A DNA stretch of 64,000 nt, taken from assembly GCF_001941825.1 (NCBI RefSeq), contig NZ_CP019038.1, forward strand, positions 6,882,001 to 6,946,000, given 5' to 3'. Source of the stretch: Massilia putida. Its GTDB lineage: Bacteria > Pseudomonadota > Gammaproteobacteria > Burkholderiales > Burkholderiaceae_D. Below the pieces are notes generated by a model. It saw only the letters and a program-made list of their open reading frames with translations. It had not been told where the DNA came from and did not search any database. This document shows, piece after piece, positions 52,386 to 60,394 of this stretch; position 1 is the stretch's first letter, and every line of letters starts with the position of its first letter. The translations under genes were made by a program, and so were the position numbers.

Positions 52386-54056
52386 ATGCCTGACCCCACC
52401 CGCCCCTTGCCGAACCTCGTCCCGCAGCCGGACGGCAGCTGGACCGGCCGAACCGTTCTCACGCCGACGTCGTTCACGACACGCGGGCTGTTCACGTTGC
52501 CGTCGTCGAAGGTGATTCCGGTCATCGTCGTGCCGGGGATCATGGGGACGAATTTGCGGGCGGCGACCAGTCCGGCGAAGAGGGCAAACAAGACAATAAA
52601 TCCGGGGGAAGAAGCTTGGCGGGCGCCGAACGGTACTATCGACGGAATTTACGCGGCCCGTTTATGGAAAGGCCGGGATCCAGGCACCCGCCAACAGATC
52701 CTCGACGGCAACACGTTGGAGGTCGACAAACGTGGCGAAATCCATTTACCGCTCGAAGCCCGCAACTATGGCATGACCGAGGCCGAGGTGCGAGAACGTT
52801 GGTGGGGGGAGGTGCATTGGGATTCATATGGAAGGTTGCTGTATGGGTTACATATTGGCCTGAACCATACGTTTGAAATGGCGCCGCTCGACAATGTGCG
52901 TGTGATTTGCGCCCATTGGAAGGACGTAATGGCATGCGATCCCACGAAATGGGGTGTCCGTGGCATCGACAAGGTCACGGAGCCGGAACTGGAAAAGCAC
53001 GCCGATTTCTACTACCCGGTGTACGCGTGCGGGTATAACTGGCTGGAATCGTGCGAGGACTCGGCCAACTGGTTGCGTCAGCGCATTGAGCGCATCATCG
53101 CGTTCTGGACCGACCGTAAGCGCGAATGTCGAAAAGTGATTCTCGTGACACATTCGATGGGCGGCCTGGTCGCGAGGGCGTGCGCGAAACAGATTCCGGA
53201 CAGCATCCTGGGTGTGATCCACGGTGCGATGCCTGCATTGGGTGCGCCTGTCTGTTACCGGCGCATCGCTTGTGGTACCGAAAAATGGAGTCCGACTAAT
53301 GGTGGGATCGACAACAAAAAAGCGGAGTACATATCGGAGATCCTTGGAGAGCGGCCAGAGTCGACGATGCCGGTAATGGCGACTTCACCCGGTGCACTAC
53401 AGTTGCTTCCGAATCATTTATACCCGCAGCCGTGGCTGCACATCTGTATGGTCAGCCGGATCAATCATAAAGATGTGCCGCGCGACGTCGTGCATTTGCC
53501 AGTTGGCAATCCCTACGAGTTCTACCGTGATATGAAGTCCTGGTACCGATTAATCGACCCAGCGTTAGCCGATCCTGTTGGGAAATACCACGACGAAGAC
53601 CACGGTGTCACGGAGGCCATCAGAAAGGCCATCGCAAAAGCTGAGCATTTTCATCGCAACGTTCTGGATGCTTACTATCATCCAAATACCTATGCCTTTT
53701 ACGGTGCCGATCCGGCTCACTTGTCCTTTGGTGCAGTGCGTTGGGTCGCGCGTGATACCGGGGCGGGGGCTGTGTTCACGGATGCCAATTTACGAAGCGC
53801 GTTGCAGACCGGTTATGGGGCTGGCGGCGGGCGCCGGGTTCGCGTCGAAGGAAGGACTGATTTGCATTTCGTACCCGCGCGGCAGGATGTTGCAGGTGAC
53901 GGAACCGTGCCACATCAATCCGGCACAGGCCCACGTGGAAAGGTTACTCAACTTTTCGATATCCGTGGATTTGATCACCAGGGAGCGTTCAACGATGAAG
54001 CTGCCTTGTTGTTGACTCATCATCTTATCGTCAAGCTTGTACAGAAGATGCCATGA
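52386..54056 (+). CDS. Predicted T6SS phospholipase/lipase effector (LCAT/PGAP1-like alpha/beta hydrolase)
   Basis: 556 residues, no signal peptide. N-terminal lipase-like PVIVVPGIMGTNLR, then a lid-rich region and the nucleophile elbow THSMGGLVARA (S257). D505 (AGDGTVP) and H531 (FDHQGAF) fit the order of the catalytic triad. The fold resembles lecithin-cholesterol acyltransferase and PGAP1-type lipases, as in Tle-type effectors delivered by VgrG. Located 32 bp after vgrG and immediately before a Tli4-type immunity gene. Codon use becomes AT-richer from about 52560 on, whereas the first 60 codons match vgrG. The Tle class (Tle4-like by partner) is inference. Confidence 0.83.
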   Translation: MPDPTRPLPNLVPQPDGSWTGRTVLTPTSFTTRGLFTLPSSKVIPVIVVPGIMGTNLRAATSPAKRANKTINPGEEAWRAPNGTIDGIYAARLWKGRDPGTRQQILDGNTLEVDKRGEIHLPLEARNYGMTEAEVRERWWGEVHWDSYGRLLYGLHIGLNHTFEMAPLDNVRVICAHWKDVMACDPTKWGVRGIDKVTEPELEKHADFYYPVYACGYNWLESCEDSANWLRQRIERIIAFWTDRKRECRKVILVTHSMGGLVARACAKQIPDSILGVIHGAMPALGAPVCYRRIACGTEKWSPTNGGIDNKKAEYISEILGERPESTMPVMATSPGALQLLPNHLYPQPWLHICMVSRINHKDVPRDVVHLPVGNPYEFYRDMKSWYRLIDPALADPVGKYHDEDHGVTEAIRKAIAKAEHFHRNVLDAYYHPNTYAFYGADPAHLSFGAVRWVARDTGAGAVFTDANLRSALQTGYGAGGGRRVRVEGRTDLHFVPARQDVAGDGTVPHQSGTGPRGKVTQLFDIRGFDHQGAFNDEAALLLTHHLIVKLVQKMP

Positions 54057-55810
54057 CGCGCATGGGGAAGCGCGGATGGCAAAAGCTCATCGTTTTGGTT
54101 GCAGCTTTAGCTTGTGCCGGAACTTGGGCTGCTGGCCAAGTCCGCAGTATGCGGGACAGATCCGAGGTGGCGAAAATGACGGAAAAGATGAAGACGATAT
54201 GTATTGGGCGGTTTCTTATCGATGTGCCGACTCAGTCCGAGATCACCGTTTCCCGCGAGAGAATGGCCGGGTTCGAAATCGAAACGATCGAGGAGGACGA
54301 CGACGCGTTCCGCAAGCGGATGGCCGCGCGTGAGACCGATATCGGTGCCAAGGGCGTGGGACAGGATCGGGACGGTGGCATTGTCGAGGCTCGCGATCTG
54401 CGGGTGCCCAACATGATTGGTCGCGTATTTGTCTATGGGCGTAGCCGCGGGCACGTGATGGAGGGTGATCGACGTGTTGACATGGAATCGGTCTCGGTCG
54501 AGGCTCATGGGCACATAAGCGGCTTGAGTTTTTCACTCGCCTCGACGGAATCGAGCGAGTCCAGAGCCAAGATTGCGGAAGAACTATTAGCGAGGCTTCG
54601 GGTTCGAGCCGAGGACGAAATTCCCGCCGTTCCTGGGTTCTGTATCTGGCGCGCCGTGTTTGCGGATCCTGTGCCTGCGCACAAGACGGAGCACATCGCG
54701 ATGCATATCGGTTTTCCCGATCACCCCGATGTGGCGCTGGCATTCGTCAGTATTCCTGGTGGCAACAGAAGCCGCAGCCTTCTGACTCGCTACGCCGATA
54801 TGGATGCCGAAGCGAGTCCTGATGAGATGCTGCGGGTGTCTAAGCTGCGCTCCGACAAGCGCGTGATCAACGGGCTCGAGGGCGAGGAAGTGTTGGAGCG
54901 TGTCCGCGAGTTGAATTTTGCGACGACATACGGTTTTGTATGGGAAACCCAAGGCATTCCGGATGATCCATGGCAGCCGTTCTTATCGCTCGAATTACAC
55001 GGCGGAATCAATCCTCAACCGGGCGGCAAACCAGTCGACGCCAGCTTGCATGAAGACGCAGTTCTGGCTCTATGGGATAGCATCTCGTCCAGCATCCGCT
55101 TACGTAAGTCTGATCCGCCGCCGCCAGACGATCTGCCCACGGAACCGCCGGCTCCGAAGCTGGGAGCATTGGCAATCGCCGGGGAAGTGTGCCCGCAGTC
55201 CGGTTGGTGGAAGTGCCGCGAGGGCGGTCCTGGTGTCGATGTCCAAGGTGGCACGGTTCAGTGGATCTGCAAGGGCGATCGTATGCCACAGGCGCTGCTG
55301 TTGCCGCGCCAGACCCTATGGCAAAAGTTGCGTGGTCTCCAGCCGAGCATCGAACCGTCACAGCTGACCACTTGGAGACTGGTCGATAAGCGGCTGCGTC
55401 CCAGGACGCCAATTTTAGTGGCGCTCGATCCTCCGGGACCCCTTAGTGCGACTGCGGACGCGCCAAGCGATGCCAGTGGCCGGCCGGCTGCCCTCGGTAT
55501 TAATGTACGGACCGGAGAAGTTTGTCCGGCGAGCGGCTGGTGGCGTTGCTTGGAGACGCATGCTCTCGACGGCACGCGCTGGTTCCCCCGCGGTAGTACC
55601 CTGCCATCCGCGACTTTTCAAGTACCAGTAGCCATGTTTGGTCGTTCAGCGGGTCCCGAAGTCATTCAGCGTCGCAGCACGTGGCAACTGATGCGTTTCG
55701 CCGAGGCTGAATTTGTCGGGCTTCTCGCTGAAGGTGGACAGGAGAGGCAAGGTGACGATCCTCCGCCTCCGGTCGGCCCGTCGACGTTCGCGAGCGACCG
55801 GCGTGCGTGA
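54053..55810 (+). CDS. Tli4-type T6SS immunity protein with duplicated C-terminal Cys/Trp domain
   Basis: 585 residues anchored by an N-terminal helix (LIVLVAALACAGTWAAG, about 12-28), so it should face the periplasm and block the lipase there. The body matches the Tle cognate immunity protein 4 pattern: ICIGRFLIDVP, GFEIETIEEDD, PGFCIWRAVF, WQPFLSLELHGG and DASLHEDAVLALWDSISSSIRLR. The C-terminal 220 residues hold two copies of an approximately 80-residue unit with GEVCP-x-SGWW-x-C (around residues 375 and 485). Starts 4 bp before the effector stop codon, so coupled. AT-richer than the chromosome average. Confidence 0.8.
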   Translation: MTRMGKRGWQKLIVLVAALACAGTWAAGQVRSMRDRSEVAKMTEKMKTICIGRFLIDVPTQSEITVSRERMAGFEIETIEEDDDAFRKRMAARETDIGAKGVGQDRDGGIVEARDLRVPNMIGRVFVYGRSRGHVMEGDRRVDMESVSVEAHGHISGLSFSLASTESSESRAKIAEELLARLRVRAEDEIPAVPGFCIWRAVFADPVPAHKTEHIAMHIGFPDHPDVALAFVSIPGGNRSRSLLTRYADMDAEASPDEMLRVSKLRSDKRVINGLEGEEVLERVRELNFATTYGFVWETQGIPDDPWQPFLSLELHGGINPQPGGKPVDASLHEDAVLALWDSISSSIRLRKSDPPPPDDLPTEPPAPKLGALAIAGEVCPQSGWWKCREGGPGVDVQGGTVQWICKGDRMPQALLLPRQTLWQKLRGLQPSIEPSQLTTWRLVDKRLRPRTPILVALDPPGPLSATADAPSDASGRPAALGINVRTGEVCPASGWWRCLETHALDGTRWFPRGSTLPSATFQVPVAMFGRSAGPEVIQRRSTWQLMRFAEAEFVGLLAEGGQERQGDDPPPPVGPSTFASDRRA

Positions 55811-55825
55811 ATACTGACTGAACGG

Positions 55826-56350
55826 GTGCCGATCACGATTAAGTCGAGAAAGCTCGGATGGTGCGCGATGATCGTACTGCTTGCAGCGCTCGCCTGTGCG
55901 GGAACGTGGGCCGTTGGTCAGGTCTCCGGTGCACGGGATCGATCCGAGGTCGAAAAAATAATGAAAAAGAAGAGCAGGGTTTGCATGGGACGCTTTCTCG
56001 TCGATGTGCCGGGCGATGCGCAGTTGCGCTTCTTACATGAGATGATGGACGGGTTCAGGATCGAGACGATCGAGGACGGTGAGGCAGTGTTCGGCAAGCG
56101 TCTGGCGGCGCGTGAGGCGGAGATCGAGGCCCGTGGCACGACGACAGGTTCACGCAGGTCGAGCGGGATCGCGGACGCCCGCGACCTGCTCCGTCCAGGA
56201 GGGCAGCCAGTGGACGCAAGTCTGCGCGGGGAGGCTGTATTGGCGCTGTGGGACAGTGTGTCGTCGAGCATCCGCCTCCGATCAGTTGTGTCCACGGATC
56301 GCCACTCGTCTGCGAACACGCCGGCCATGTGCGATCCCGACCCGACATGA
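55826..56350 (+). CDS. Second, internally deleted Tli4-type immunity gene
   Basis: 174-residue paralogue of the preceding gene. The membrane anchor and first 110 residues align (LLAALACAGTWAVGQV, CMGRFLVDVP, FRIETIEDGEAVF); after ADARDL it jumps to PGGQPVDASLRGEAVLALWDSVSSSIRLR, which corresponds to residue 323 onwards of the long copy. About 205 residues are missing in frame, and the Cys/Trp repeats are lost. Starts with GTG 15 bp after the long gene. It may be inactive or a partial immunity or competitor form. Confidence 0.65.
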   Translation: MPITIKSRKLGWCAMIVLLAALACAGTWAVGQVSGARDRSEVEKIMKKKSRVCMGRFLVDVPGDAQLRFLHEMMDGFRIETIEDGEAVFGKRLAAREAEIEARGTTTGSRRSSGIADARDLLRPGGQPVDASLRGEAVLALWDSVSSSIRLRSVVSTDRHSSANTPAMCDPDPT

Positions 56351-56384: not shown

Positions 56385-57170
56385 ATGCGCAGCTTCATCC
56401 TTGGGTTCGTCAGCGGCATCACCTACCTGCAAACCGTCGCGGCGCTACCTTCTGCAAACCTGATGGCCGCCTGCGCTGCCACCGCCACGCTCCTCGTGCT
56501 GGCCTGCGCATCCACACGCCGCCGCCCGGCAGCGCGCATCGCGACAATCGCCACCGCCGGCCTCCTGGCCGGCTATGCCTGGGCCGCACTGCTGGCCCAG
56601 GCCACGCTCGCGCCATCGCTAGCCCCGCGCGACGAAGGCCGCGACCTGCACATCGTCGGCATCGTCGAGACGCTGCCGTACCGCTTCGACCAGGGCGTGC
56701 GCTTCGGCTTCCATGTCGAACGCAGCCTCGACGCGGACGTGCGGGTGCCGCCCCACGTGGCGCTGTCGTGGTACGCGGGCATGCATGGCGCGCGCCAGGT
56801 GGTCGGCGACGTCCAGCCGGGCCAGCGCTGGCAATTGACGGTGCGCCTGCAGCGCCCCCACGGCAACGCGAATCCGGGCGGGTTCGATTACGAAGCGTGG
56901 CTGCTGGAGCAAGGCGTGCGCGCCACCGGCTACGTCCGCGCCGGCGACGACGACACGCAGCTCGACGCCTTCGTGCCCGGTCCCGGCGTGCTGGTCGAAC
57001 GTGTCCGCGCGGCGTTGCGGGCCCGCATCCAGGATGCCCTCGCGGGGCGCGCGTACGCAGGCGTCATCGTGGCGCTCGTGATCGGCGACCAGCGCGGCAT
57101 CGACCAGGCCGACTGGCAGGTGTTCAACCGCACCGGGATCGGTCATCTGATTTCGATCTCGTGGCTATGA
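56385..57170 (+). pseudogene. comEC: comEC 5' part (competence DNA-uptake channel, disrupted)
   Basis: N-terminal 259 residues of ComEC/Rec2: membrane helices near residues 15-70, the OB-like domain (VGIVETLPYRFDQGVRFGF, GQRWQLTVRLQRPHGNANPGGFDYEAWLLEQG) and the start of the channel domain (NRTGIGHLISIS). The conserved I-S-I-S-G core breaks after ISIS (57150-57161); then WL and a stop at 57168-57170 come from inserted DNA. ATG at 56385 lies just after the truncated immunity gene. Protein truncated before the channel, so not functional alone. Confidence 0.9.
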
Positions 57171-57259
57171 ATACATCGCGGCACTGGTAGTTGTGGCGAA
57201 TATCGGCTGGTGGTATGTCAAAAGGAATTTCTGCGCTCTGGCTACGGCTAACTTCAGCT

Positions 57260-58336
57260 TTAGAACGGCCATACGTTGAACGGCGCTCCCACAAAAAGTC
57301 CGAGCGTCGTTTTTTTGTCTTGGCTGTCCCAAGAGACCCCGAACCCGCCGCTTAAGGCACTGTCTTTATTCGCTAGTAAATAAACTGGAAAGTCTATAGT
57401 GGTTTTGTGCACGTTCTTATCACGTGTCACGGAAGGCGAGATCCCCACACTTGACCCAATCAGTATCCGCCCTTCAAGACCAAAGAGCGTACTCGCCTGA
57501 CTCTTTGGCATACCGATCGATCCCGTCACACAAGCAATAGTAGTTGAGGTCGCTAGTGCTGGGCACCTAACGGACTGGTCTAAATCCTTGTAATCCTGCT
57601 TTCGAGTAACTTTCAACACATAGAACTGAGGTAAAGCAACTGAGCTAGGATTCCACCCTGCATATAGCGATGCGCTCCACGGATTGTTGTGCACTTCGTT
57701 CTTCGACAATGTCGTTGCGTCGTAGAATGTAGAATTCTGCCTTCCATACTTTAAAGCTGCGCCCCATAAAACTCCACCGGGAGTGGGCCCGGGCATGGAA
57801 GCTCTCGCTTCTTGATATAAGTCAGATGAAAGGTATTTTGCAAAATTGGTTGCAGTACATTCAAGTTTTTTTGCGTCAGTGCCCGGAGGAAGACTAACGC
57901 TTTTTTCCGCTGCACTGCGCATCTTATTGCAATACTCGGTCAATTTTGAAAGGTTTCCCGGACTTACTCCGGTTTGAAAGCGCATGTACGAAACACCAAT
58001 GGCAGTCGCGTTTTCGAACCCATCCACTGAGAATAATCGGTGAGGACTGTCAGTTTTGCCAATGGGCGCCTCAGCGGACAGATTCCAAGTGGAAAACTGT
58101 GCTGTTTCATCGGTGAGCGTTGACGTTTCCTTCCCAATTTTGATGGAGGCGGATGATCCATCATTGGAGGCGGTGATTTGCGCTCCGGCCGAAGAGATAA
58201 GAGAAGAAGATGGAGCTGCGGTAATCACTTGAGGCATCTTGTCTGGCGCTTTCGGCGTTTCATCGGCAGACGAAACTTCGCACAGAGAGAGAGCAAGCAT
58301 CAACGTAGTTGCATTACATACACTCATAGTTTTCAT
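57260..58336 (-). CDS. Unknown exported protein, beta-barrel-like, in the comEC insertion
   Basis: 358 residues from the ATG at 58336 (AGGGATAAACAA upstream). Signal peptide to about residue 24 (CEVSSADE). The mature protein is rich in Ser/Thr/Asn with short alternating strands (SASLYAGWNPSS, DFPVYLLANKDSALSGGFGVSWD) and ends GLFVGAPFNVWPF, the C-terminal Phe typical of outer-membrane barrels. Four or more Cys residues are scattered. No family recognised. Second gene of a two-gene unit with the 89-residue gene. Strongly different codon use from its neighbours. Confidence 0.7.
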   Translation of the reverse strand: MKTMSVCNATTLMLALSLCEVSSADETPKAPDKMPQVITAAPSSSLISSAGAQITASNDGSSASIKIGKETSTLTDETAQFSTWNLSAEAPIGKTDSPHRLFSVDGFENATAIGVSYMRFQTGVSPGNLSKLTEYCNKMRSAAEKSVSLPPGTDAKKLECTATNFAKYLSSDLYQEARASMPGPTPGGVLWGAALKYGRQNSTFYDATTLSKNEVHNNPWSASLYAGWNPSSVALPQFYVLKVTRKQDYKDLDQSVRCPALATSTTIACVTGSIGMPKSQASTLFGLEGRILIGSSVGISPSVTRDKNVHKTTIDFPVYLLANKDSALSGGFGVSWDSQDKKTTLGLFVGAPFNVWPF

Positions 58337-58346
58337 TTGTTTATCC

Positions 58347-58616
58347 CTAGGGAACGACAAATGACTTGGTGCCCCAGCCATCAACGGAATTCGCTGGGAT
58401 CATGTCGCTTACTCCGACCAAAACCCCGGCCGGACCGATTACTTCGAATGCGAATTTGCTTCCTGCGGGACCTCTAAAGTCCCAGAAGAGGTTGTAATTG
58501 CCGGGTGGAAGCGTTGCGACGCTATCGGTTAAATTTACGTTATTTGGCCCTAAGGTCGTCCAGTACCAGTAAGGTCCAGCCGCAGCCACCATAGTCTTGC
58601 CTTGCACCTGTGTCAT
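58347..58616 (-). CDS. Small protein of unknown function in the comEC insertion
   Basis: 89 residues with no signal peptide. Beta-rich and aromatic (AAAGPYWYWTTLGPN, GNYNLFWDFRGPAGSKFAFEV, GWGTKSFVVP). GGGAGGGCAA before the ATG at 58616 is a strong ribosome binding site. It is followed after 10 bp by the exported protein gene. The compact beta-sandwich look could fit a carbohydrate- or phage-type binding domain, but no similarity is claimed. Confidence 0.6.
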   Translation of the reverse strand: MTQVQGKTMVAAAGPYWYWTTLGPNNVNLTDSVATLPPGNYNLFWDFRGPAGSKFAFEVIGPAGVLVGVSDMIPANSVDGWGTKSFVVP

Positions 58617-58648
58617 TTGCCCTCCCTATTGAAGAGTGAAGCTAAATT

Positions 58649-60394
58649 TTGTTGGCGAACAGATACGATAATGTAAACACTCGCCACGGAAGAAATCAAC
58701 TCGTGTTGGATAAATCGCAATATTTCTTCATTTTGGACCTCGTCAATTTTGTCTTAAAGCAAGAATGGCCTTACATCATCTCCATCTCCGGATTGCACAT
58801 CACGATGATCGCGGGCCTTGCCGCCGGGGCCGTGTCGGCCCTGTGGCGCCGCTCGTTCTACACCCCCGCGCGGCTGCCGCTGCTGCTACCGGCACAGAAG
58901 GCGGCGGCGCTCGCCGGGGCGGTCGTCGCCTTGCTGTATGTGCTGCTGGCCGGTTTCGGCGTGCCGGCGCAGCGCACGTTGTACATGCTGTCCGTCGTCG
59001 CGCTGGCGTTGTGGACGGGGCGCCTGGCGGCCGTGTCGCACGTGCTGTGCACGGCGCTCGGGGCGGTCGTGCTGCTCGACCCGTGGGCGGTGCTGTGGCC
59101 GGGGTTCTGGCTGTCGTTCGGCGCGGTGGCCGTCATCCTGTTCGCCGGGCACGGCCGGATCGGGCCGCCGCCCGCCGGTCCGCGCGGCGCGCTGCTGCTG
59201 GCGGGACGCACGCAATGGGCCGTCACGGCCGGGCTGGTGCCGCTGACGTTGCTGCTGTTCGCTCAGGTGTCCATCGTCAGTCCGCTCGCGAACGCGGTGG
59301 CGATCCCGCTCGTCAGCTTCGTCGTAACGCCGCTCGCGCTGGCCGGCAGCCTGATGCCCGGGCCCCCGGGCGACTGGCTGCTTCTGCTCGCGCACTGGGT
59401 CGTCGAGATGCTCGCGGCGCTGCTGCGGCTCATGTCCGGATGGCCCGGCGCCGTGTGGCGTGCGCCGGCGCCGCAGGCGTGGGTGTTCGTCCTGGGTGTG
59501 GGCGGCACGCTGTGGATGCTGATGCCGCGCGGCTGGCCGCATCGCTGGGCAGGTGCGGTGGCGCTGCTGCCGATGCTGCTGCAGGTCCCGGACCATCCAC
59601 CCGCCGGCACCTTTCGCGTGACGGCGTTCGACGTGGGGCAGGGCATGGCGCTGCTCGTCGAAACGGAGCGGCACCGGCTCATTTACGACACGGGCCCCGC
59701 ATACGCGCCCGGTGTCGATGGCGGCAGCCGCGTGATCCTGCCCTACCTGCGCATGCGCGGCATCGCGGCGCTCGACGGCATCGTCGTCAGCCACAGCGAC
59801 ACGGACCACACGGGCGGCGCGCTGGCGCTGCTGGAAGGCGTCGATGCCGGCTGGCTCGCGTCGTCTTTGCCCATCGACCACGCGATCGTGCGCGCGGCGC
59901 GGCGGCACCTACGCTGCGCCGCCGGCCAGCATTGGGAGTGGGACGGCATCGTGTTCGACATGCTGCATCCGACGCCCGCCAGTTATGGCGATGCGCACCT
60001 GAAGACCAATGCGCGCAGCTGCACGCTCCGCATCAGCAATGGCCGGCGCACCGTGCTGCTGGCCGGCGACATCGAAGCCGCGCAGGAAGCGGCGCTGCTC
60101 GATCGCGCGCGCGCGCAGCTGCGCGCGGACGTGCTGCTCGCCCCGCACCACGGCAGCGGCACGTCGTCGACACTGGCCTTTTTGGAGGCGGTGCGGCCCG
60201 AGGTCGCAATCTTCCAGGTGGGATTCCGCAATCGCTACCACCACCCGAAGGCCGAGGTTTATGAACGCTACGGCACGCTCGGCATCCGGCGCCTGCGCAC
60301 CGACGACGCGGGTGCGCTGATGCTGGACGTCGGTAACTCCGTGAACTGGCGCAGCTACCGCGACGAGCATGCGCGCTACTGGTACCGGCGCTGA
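58649..60394 (+). pseudogene. comEC: comEC 3' part (channel and metallo-beta-lactamase-like domain)
   Basis: Real comEC sequence starts at the ISISGLHITM core (58778) and runs to the stop, about 534 residues. It has the competence channel helices (SGLHITMIAGLAAGAV, GFGVPAQRTLYML) and the C-terminal metallo-beta-lactamase-like domain (FDVGQGMALLVE, SHSDTDHTGGA, LLAPHHGSGTSS). The 43 codons before it (from 58649) are AT-rich insert sequence with a TTG-type start, so the piece might be translated. The stop TGATCA is shared with the convergent kinase gene. Confidence 0.88.

Follow-up and report, generated by a model that had tools for sequence, protein, structure and literature searches.

We analysed a 64,000-nucleotide stretch of the Massilia putida genome (contig NZ_CP019038.1; hereafter the window) in which comEC, the gene for the channel that takes up DNA during transformation, is interrupted by foreign DNA. 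The features of the locus are collected in Table 1. As translated from the open reading frames (ORFs), the left part of the gene comprises 259 codons, with its frame running on to a stop at 57168–57170, and the right part comprises 538 codons and a stop. The two parts meet at the same four residues, Ile-Ser-Ile-Ser (ISIS), and make up 793 residues when ISIS is counted once. Pfam assigns DUF4131 and positions 1–29 of the Competence profile to the left half, and positions 26–268 of that profile, together with Lactamase_B (metallo-β-lactamase domain), to the right half; the profile is therefore also broken at ISIS. The G+C content of the insert is 0.47–0.50, compared with 0.68–0.75 in the comEC parts. 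These results confirm what an earlier note on this DNA had claimed from the letters alone, namely that comEC is cut at ISIS by AT-richer foreign DNA and that its halves add up to about 793 residues.

The two copies of the ISIS codons, ATTTCGATCTCG on the left (57150–57161) and ATCTCCATCTCC on the right (58778–58789), differ at three of 12 nucleotides, as the same note had remarked, and ATCTC is common to both junctions. The unlike copies also support its view that the insert is not a simple target duplication. We rejected that explanation, along with an insertion sequence (IS) or DDE transposon, on account of the mismatched copies, of the two insert ORFs (89 and 374 amino acids), neither of which has any Pfam family match, and of the repeats listed for the window, none of which links the two ends. 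A search of the whole genome (G000) returned a single comEC match, and no second comEC was found anywhere in it.

Table 1. Features of the interrupted comEC locus (positions in the window)
Feature	Position	Strand	Description
comEC 5' part	56385..57161	+	DUF4131 and first 29 Competence positions; frame to stop at 57170; dN/dS 0.24 vs G009
Left attachment junction (attL-like)	57150..57178	+	Host core TTTCGAT, then element arm with CTATGAATACATC at 57165–57177; putative exchange AT at 57156–57157
Inserted cargo module, ~1.63 kb	57158..58785		AT-richer; one copy in genome; no recombinase gene found
374-aa ORF (358-aa start in database entry P0001)	57260..58384	-	Predicted signal peptide and outer-membrane β-barrel
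89-aa ORF, partner gene of the 374-aa ORF	58347..58616	-	Predicted all-β sandwich
Right junction	58764..58789	+	Module end, core ATCTCCAT, then host CTCCGGATTGCAC; no inverted right arm
comEC 3' part	58778..60394	+	Remaining Competence domain and metallo-β-lactamase-like domain; dN/dS 0.16 vs G009

The comparison with relatives that the earlier note had proposed bears out the insertion. A comEC gene is present in 40 of the 41 genomes searched first, and all 24 genomes of the same genus in that search, besides that of the window, have an uninterrupted frame of 785 codons or more. Of these, G009 is the nearest to the window genome (90% protein identity), and its gene is intact with an empty site. 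In a wider survey, the right half of comEC was found in 368 of 383 genomes of the family Oxalobacteraceae, and counts of split genes rest on the best-matching 149 of these 368 genomes (150 rows). Frames shorter than 700 codons occur in 11 of the 150 rows; nine were examined, and G265 and G240, which lie near contig edges, were left out.

A probable attachment site shared with serine-recombinase islands

The first hint that the insertion site is used elsewhere came from a DNA search of 392 family genomes, in which a match in G344, a genome of the same genus, starts in the left comEC half and runs about 17 nucleotides into the insert. In G344, comEC is cut at this residue by an island of 18.9 kb, which has TCGATATTGGGTCTATGAATACATC at its left end and an inverted copy of the recombination arm at its right end. 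Within the best-matching 149 genomes, a cut at ISIS that bears this arm was found in five: the window genome, G344, G219, G329 and G042, the last of these across two contigs. The four others thus have members of one element family inserted at this position, and none of them is known to produce a functional ComEC in two pieces.

The exact 13-mer CTATGAATACATC of the arm has a single occurrence in the window, and a gapless alignment places it in register with the arms found in the four other genomes. A weight matrix built from six arms of these four genomes gives the 28-nucleotide left junction 32.3 bits; elsewhere in the 64-kb window the best score is 8.5 bits, and the maximum across 60 simulated 14-kb sequences was 12.7 bits, a null drawn from GC-rich, window-like composition and mild for AT-rich DNA. 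In six whole genomes, a degenerate pattern derived from all the arms has seven occurrences, five of them abutting comEC sequence and two lying within the G344 and G329 islands, next to the gene for a large serine recombinase (LSR); the same pattern read backwards has none in these genomes. Inverted right arms score 19.9 bits in G344, 21.5 in G329 and 19.5 in G219, and the right end of the G042 element lies at a contig edge.

The arms are closely associated with LSR genes. In G219 and G042, no more than about 100 bp separates the start of the LSR gene from the arm that abuts comEC. The islands of G344 and G329 have an additional, internal arm, situated 3.5 kb and 1.4 kb further in, respectively, and there the LSR gene begins at most about 100 bp from the internal arm. 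The three intact LSRs, when tested by Pfam, have Resolvase, Recombinase and Zn-ribbon domains, and the LSR gene of G344 contains an in-frame stop.

The exchange point probably lies inside ISIS, so that 57158–57161 and 58778–58783 would be element DNA. Exchange at the AT dinucleotide within these codons would make each ISIS copy half host and half element: the left copy would be host through TTTCGAT and element beyond, and the right copy element through the first ATCTCC and host beyond. We propose that the ISIS codons are unlike because the exchange falls inside them. An empty site reconstructed on this basis is similar to the consensus of 23 comEC loci, those recognised by motif among 29 fetched.

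Several observations weigh against assigning the window insert to this element family. The right junction of the window has no inverted arm, with a best minus-strand match in the region of 2.4 bits, and its right end consists of a core of 8 nucleotides only. A spot inside the AT-rich G344 island that is not a junction scores 18.3 bits, and the right arms (19.5–21.5 bits) are therefore less secure than the left arms. The initial G344 match is weak by itself (E 0.008). The module carries no recombinase gene, and the window genome has a single LSR relative, a distant one (E 8e-50) located about 3 Mb from the module, so the acting enzyme is not present. Finally, the pair of genes found in the insert sits apart from comEC in G392 (contig 11 versus contig 44). 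Taking the evidence as a whole, we consider it quite probable that the ISIS codons of comEC are a recurrent attachment site for a family of integrative elements moved by LSRs, and that in the window this site holds a two-gene cargo module with the left arm of the family. The earlier note was right about a foreign insertion at ISIS and missed this probable serine-recombinase attachment site.

Some other comEC loci were noted in the wider survey. A further genome of the same genus, G385, is also cut at ISIS and was dropped as a family member, having no arm. It contains an intact comEC, which a two-gene stretch of about 3.1 kb separates from a second copy of the 3' half that begins exactly at ISIS (L067 4161–11300); its two 3' halves are near-identical over about 800 nucleotides and then differ at 11–36 positions per 100. 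In G392, comEC is interrupted near residue 165 by about 2.4 kb (L073 14127–17230).

Cargo and origin of the window module

Comparison of the insert with LSRs revealed no similarity, and PADLOC gave no match that would link its 89/374-amino-acid pair to defence. No relatives of the insert at the DNA level were found in plasmid or phage records. For the 89-amino-acid protein, fold comparison gave middling matches only, and a scan of named genome and viral contigs returned pattern matches with no confirmed relative, a scan that misses distant relatives; distant relatives were recovered by whole-genome search. In some genomes of another genus, the pair is adjoined by a third gene, encoding a membrane protein of about 470–520 amino acids, which is not in the window.

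Modules of the same form occur within the related islands. In G344, a 3.5-kb module without an LSR lies between the comEC-abutting arm and the internal arm, and G329 has a 1.4-kb LSR-less module with a single TIR-type gene. The modules of G344, G329 and the window are alike in having an arm at the left and only a bare core at the right. The window module may once have stood in a tandem array with an LSR element; loss of the LSR element on its right, at the core, would have left module DNA against a bare core. We favour this history, in which the window module is the stranded cargo of a former array, and give the loss step about an even chance.

Its main rival is that the module inserted alone, as a circle with a single arm and core acted on by an LSR in trans, and was never in a larger array. 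The three one-armed modules could be self-contained moving units, as this would require; LSRs, however, normally join two unlike sites, so a one-armed circle is no standard substrate, and the modules of G344 and G329 each directly adjoin an LSR element. We regard insertion of the module alone as unlikely. Much less probable still is an ordinary transposon or a microhomology insertion, in which ends were joined by chance at a short match. The shared ATCTC and the lack of any recognised transposase or recombinase in the insert would suit such an event, which nevertheless leaves unexplained an arm in register with the islands of four genomes at the same residue; moreover, among the repeats listed (all direct families and the 25 longest of 33 inverted pairs), none links one end of the insert with the other. 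That an assembly error fused unrelated DNA into comEC is exceedingly improbable: the insert is embedded in a contig of 6.99 Mb, in a 7.52-Mb genome assembled in three contigs with a completeness of 100, and its left end matches a recombination arm found at the same site in other genomes.

Cis-mobilizable elements (CIMEs) arise by accretion and loss of integrative elements and carry cargo between attL and attR without a recombinase. The window module would resemble them as recombinase-free cargo at an attachment site, beside or derived from tandem arrays. In contrast to a CIME, which has both att sites, the window module has an attL-like end and lacks the right arm. A more speculative reading, which we consider rather unlikely and hold with less confidence than the origin as stranded cargo, is that the ISIS site acts as a docking port at which one-armed, recombinase-free cassettes are gained and lost in tandem beside an LSR element, in the manner of an integron. 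If so, defence and surface genes would collect at comEC at the cost of transformation.

Islands at comEC sites contain defence-type genes according to PADLOC, which was applied to eight of their ORFs in one analysis and to one in another. The genes recognised are a CBASS-like set in G208 (phospholipase, cyclase, E1-E2 and JAB; L071 14779–19094), AbiEi and AbiEii in G328 (L070 12262–13955), and a TIR-NLR and a TIR effector in G329 (TIR-NLR at L072 9157–11760). In G328 (L070, L079 and L080) and G208 (L071, L078 and L083), comEC is interrupted at another site, some 15 residues upstream of ISIS, and elements are present at both ISIS and this upstream site in G042 (L077 and L082) and G329 (L075 and L081). 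Elements at the upstream site have ends such as TGGT...CAATTAAAACCTG or carry GGGAAGAACTTAATTGTC repeats, which by eye gives them a Tn7-like appearance. Directly upstream of the window comEC, at 54053–56350, a Tli4-like immunity gene follows a lipase-like gene and is itself followed by a shortened second Tli4 copy; the DNA upstream of comEC in G009 is related to this region.

Competence genes as targets and the likely effect on transformation

At a threshold of E 1e-60, the 383 family genomes contain 26 LSRs in 25 genomes. Four of the 26 lie in comEC, nine were assigned to comM, one possibly to a comF-type gene, and 12 lie elsewhere or are unassigned; of the comM assignments, three are confirmed by Pfam, one (a 36-amino-acid piece) has no match and five were read by eye. 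When named genomes were scanned using the LSR alignment, 10 loci were obtained, including those of Duganella aquatilis FT26W, a Herminiimonas metagenome-assembled genome and Desulfopila sp. IMCC35006; five more were read as comM (one of them confirmed by Pfam), and two are others. The Desulfopila LSR (L095), 33% identical, follows directly after a comEC N-terminus that ends in MHILAM, the residue equivalent to ISIS, and in which Pfam recognises DUF4131 (E 2e-26) and the start of Competence (E 0.005).

A tree of 32 LSRs unites the four comEC enzymes of Oxalobacteraceae with one unassigned LSR (100/99), and two comM enzymes stand next to them (98/97). The Desulfopila LSR falls apart from this group, and comEC has therefore probably been reached by these LSRs at least twice, although the Desulfopila row is long-branched. 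In G197 (L102), an LSR of the comEC clade perhaps lies in a comF-type phosphoribosyltransferase gene, a weak Pfam match (E 0.009). If this LSR truly lies in such a gene, the clade would have a third competence target.

The interrupted gene is little decayed. Neither half contains a stop, and the ratio of nonsynonymous to synonymous substitution rates (dN/dS) against the intact gene of G009 was calculated over 254 codons on the left and 534 on the right (values in Table 1). These low ratios and open halves fit a recent insertion, and are also compatible with use of the pieces. Since the intact Competence domain is lost, the strain likely makes no full-length ComEC and hence takes up no DNA by transformation; the non-transformability that the earlier note expected is thus a sound inference. 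A ComEC that works as two polypeptides, which would render the insertion neutral for transformation, accords with the open, slowly diverging halves and with a right-half frame that is open upstream as far as a TTG start at 58649. The cut, however, falls 29 positions into the Competence domain and not at a domain border, and the low dN/dS may reflect only how recent the insertion is relative to the split from G009; we therefore hold a functional two-part ComEC to be highly improbable.

Elements that integrate site-specifically into competence genes are known. A survey of LSRs describes their targets as strongly enriched in competence genes, with the magnesium chelatase gene the target of 12.4% of predicted site-specific LSRs (Durrant et al. 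2022, PMC10083194). The clade described here agrees with that survey in having comM relatives and differs in that comEC is not named in the passages of the survey considered here and that the window module has no LSR. A close precedent for the site is in streptococci, where, according to the published description, Phi1207.3 and Phi10394.4 (Tn1207.3) integrate site-specifically into comEC at a GA dinucleotide and interrupt the gene, serine recombinases being thought responsible (PMC4260502). Compared by description rather than by sequence, that element is a prophage of 52.5 kb whose right end holds two recombinases in tandem, whereas the window holds a 1.6-kb module without a recombinase, a probable AT exchange within ISIS and an Oxalobacteraceae host. 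Mobile DNA also interrupts comEC in Piscirickettsia salmonis, in an account that terms such disruption rare and otherwise confined to some streptococci (PMC12955456). There, several transposons lie at unlike positions in decayed frames, in contrast to the one fixed residue and undecayed halves seen here. Work on Acinetobacter treats comM and uses a comEC deletion as a non-transformable control (PMC11472951).

No paper in the library searched mentions both large serine recombinases and comEC, and, to judge by titles and the openings of abstracts, none of those listed deals with this site in Oxalobacteraceae. Our searches turned up no description of the family, the ISIS site or the one-armed modules, nor of the pair formed by the LSR and its attachment site. 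With an LSR whose attachment site in comEC is defined, it becomes directly testable in environmental bacteria whether mobile elements disable transformation to avoid being cured.

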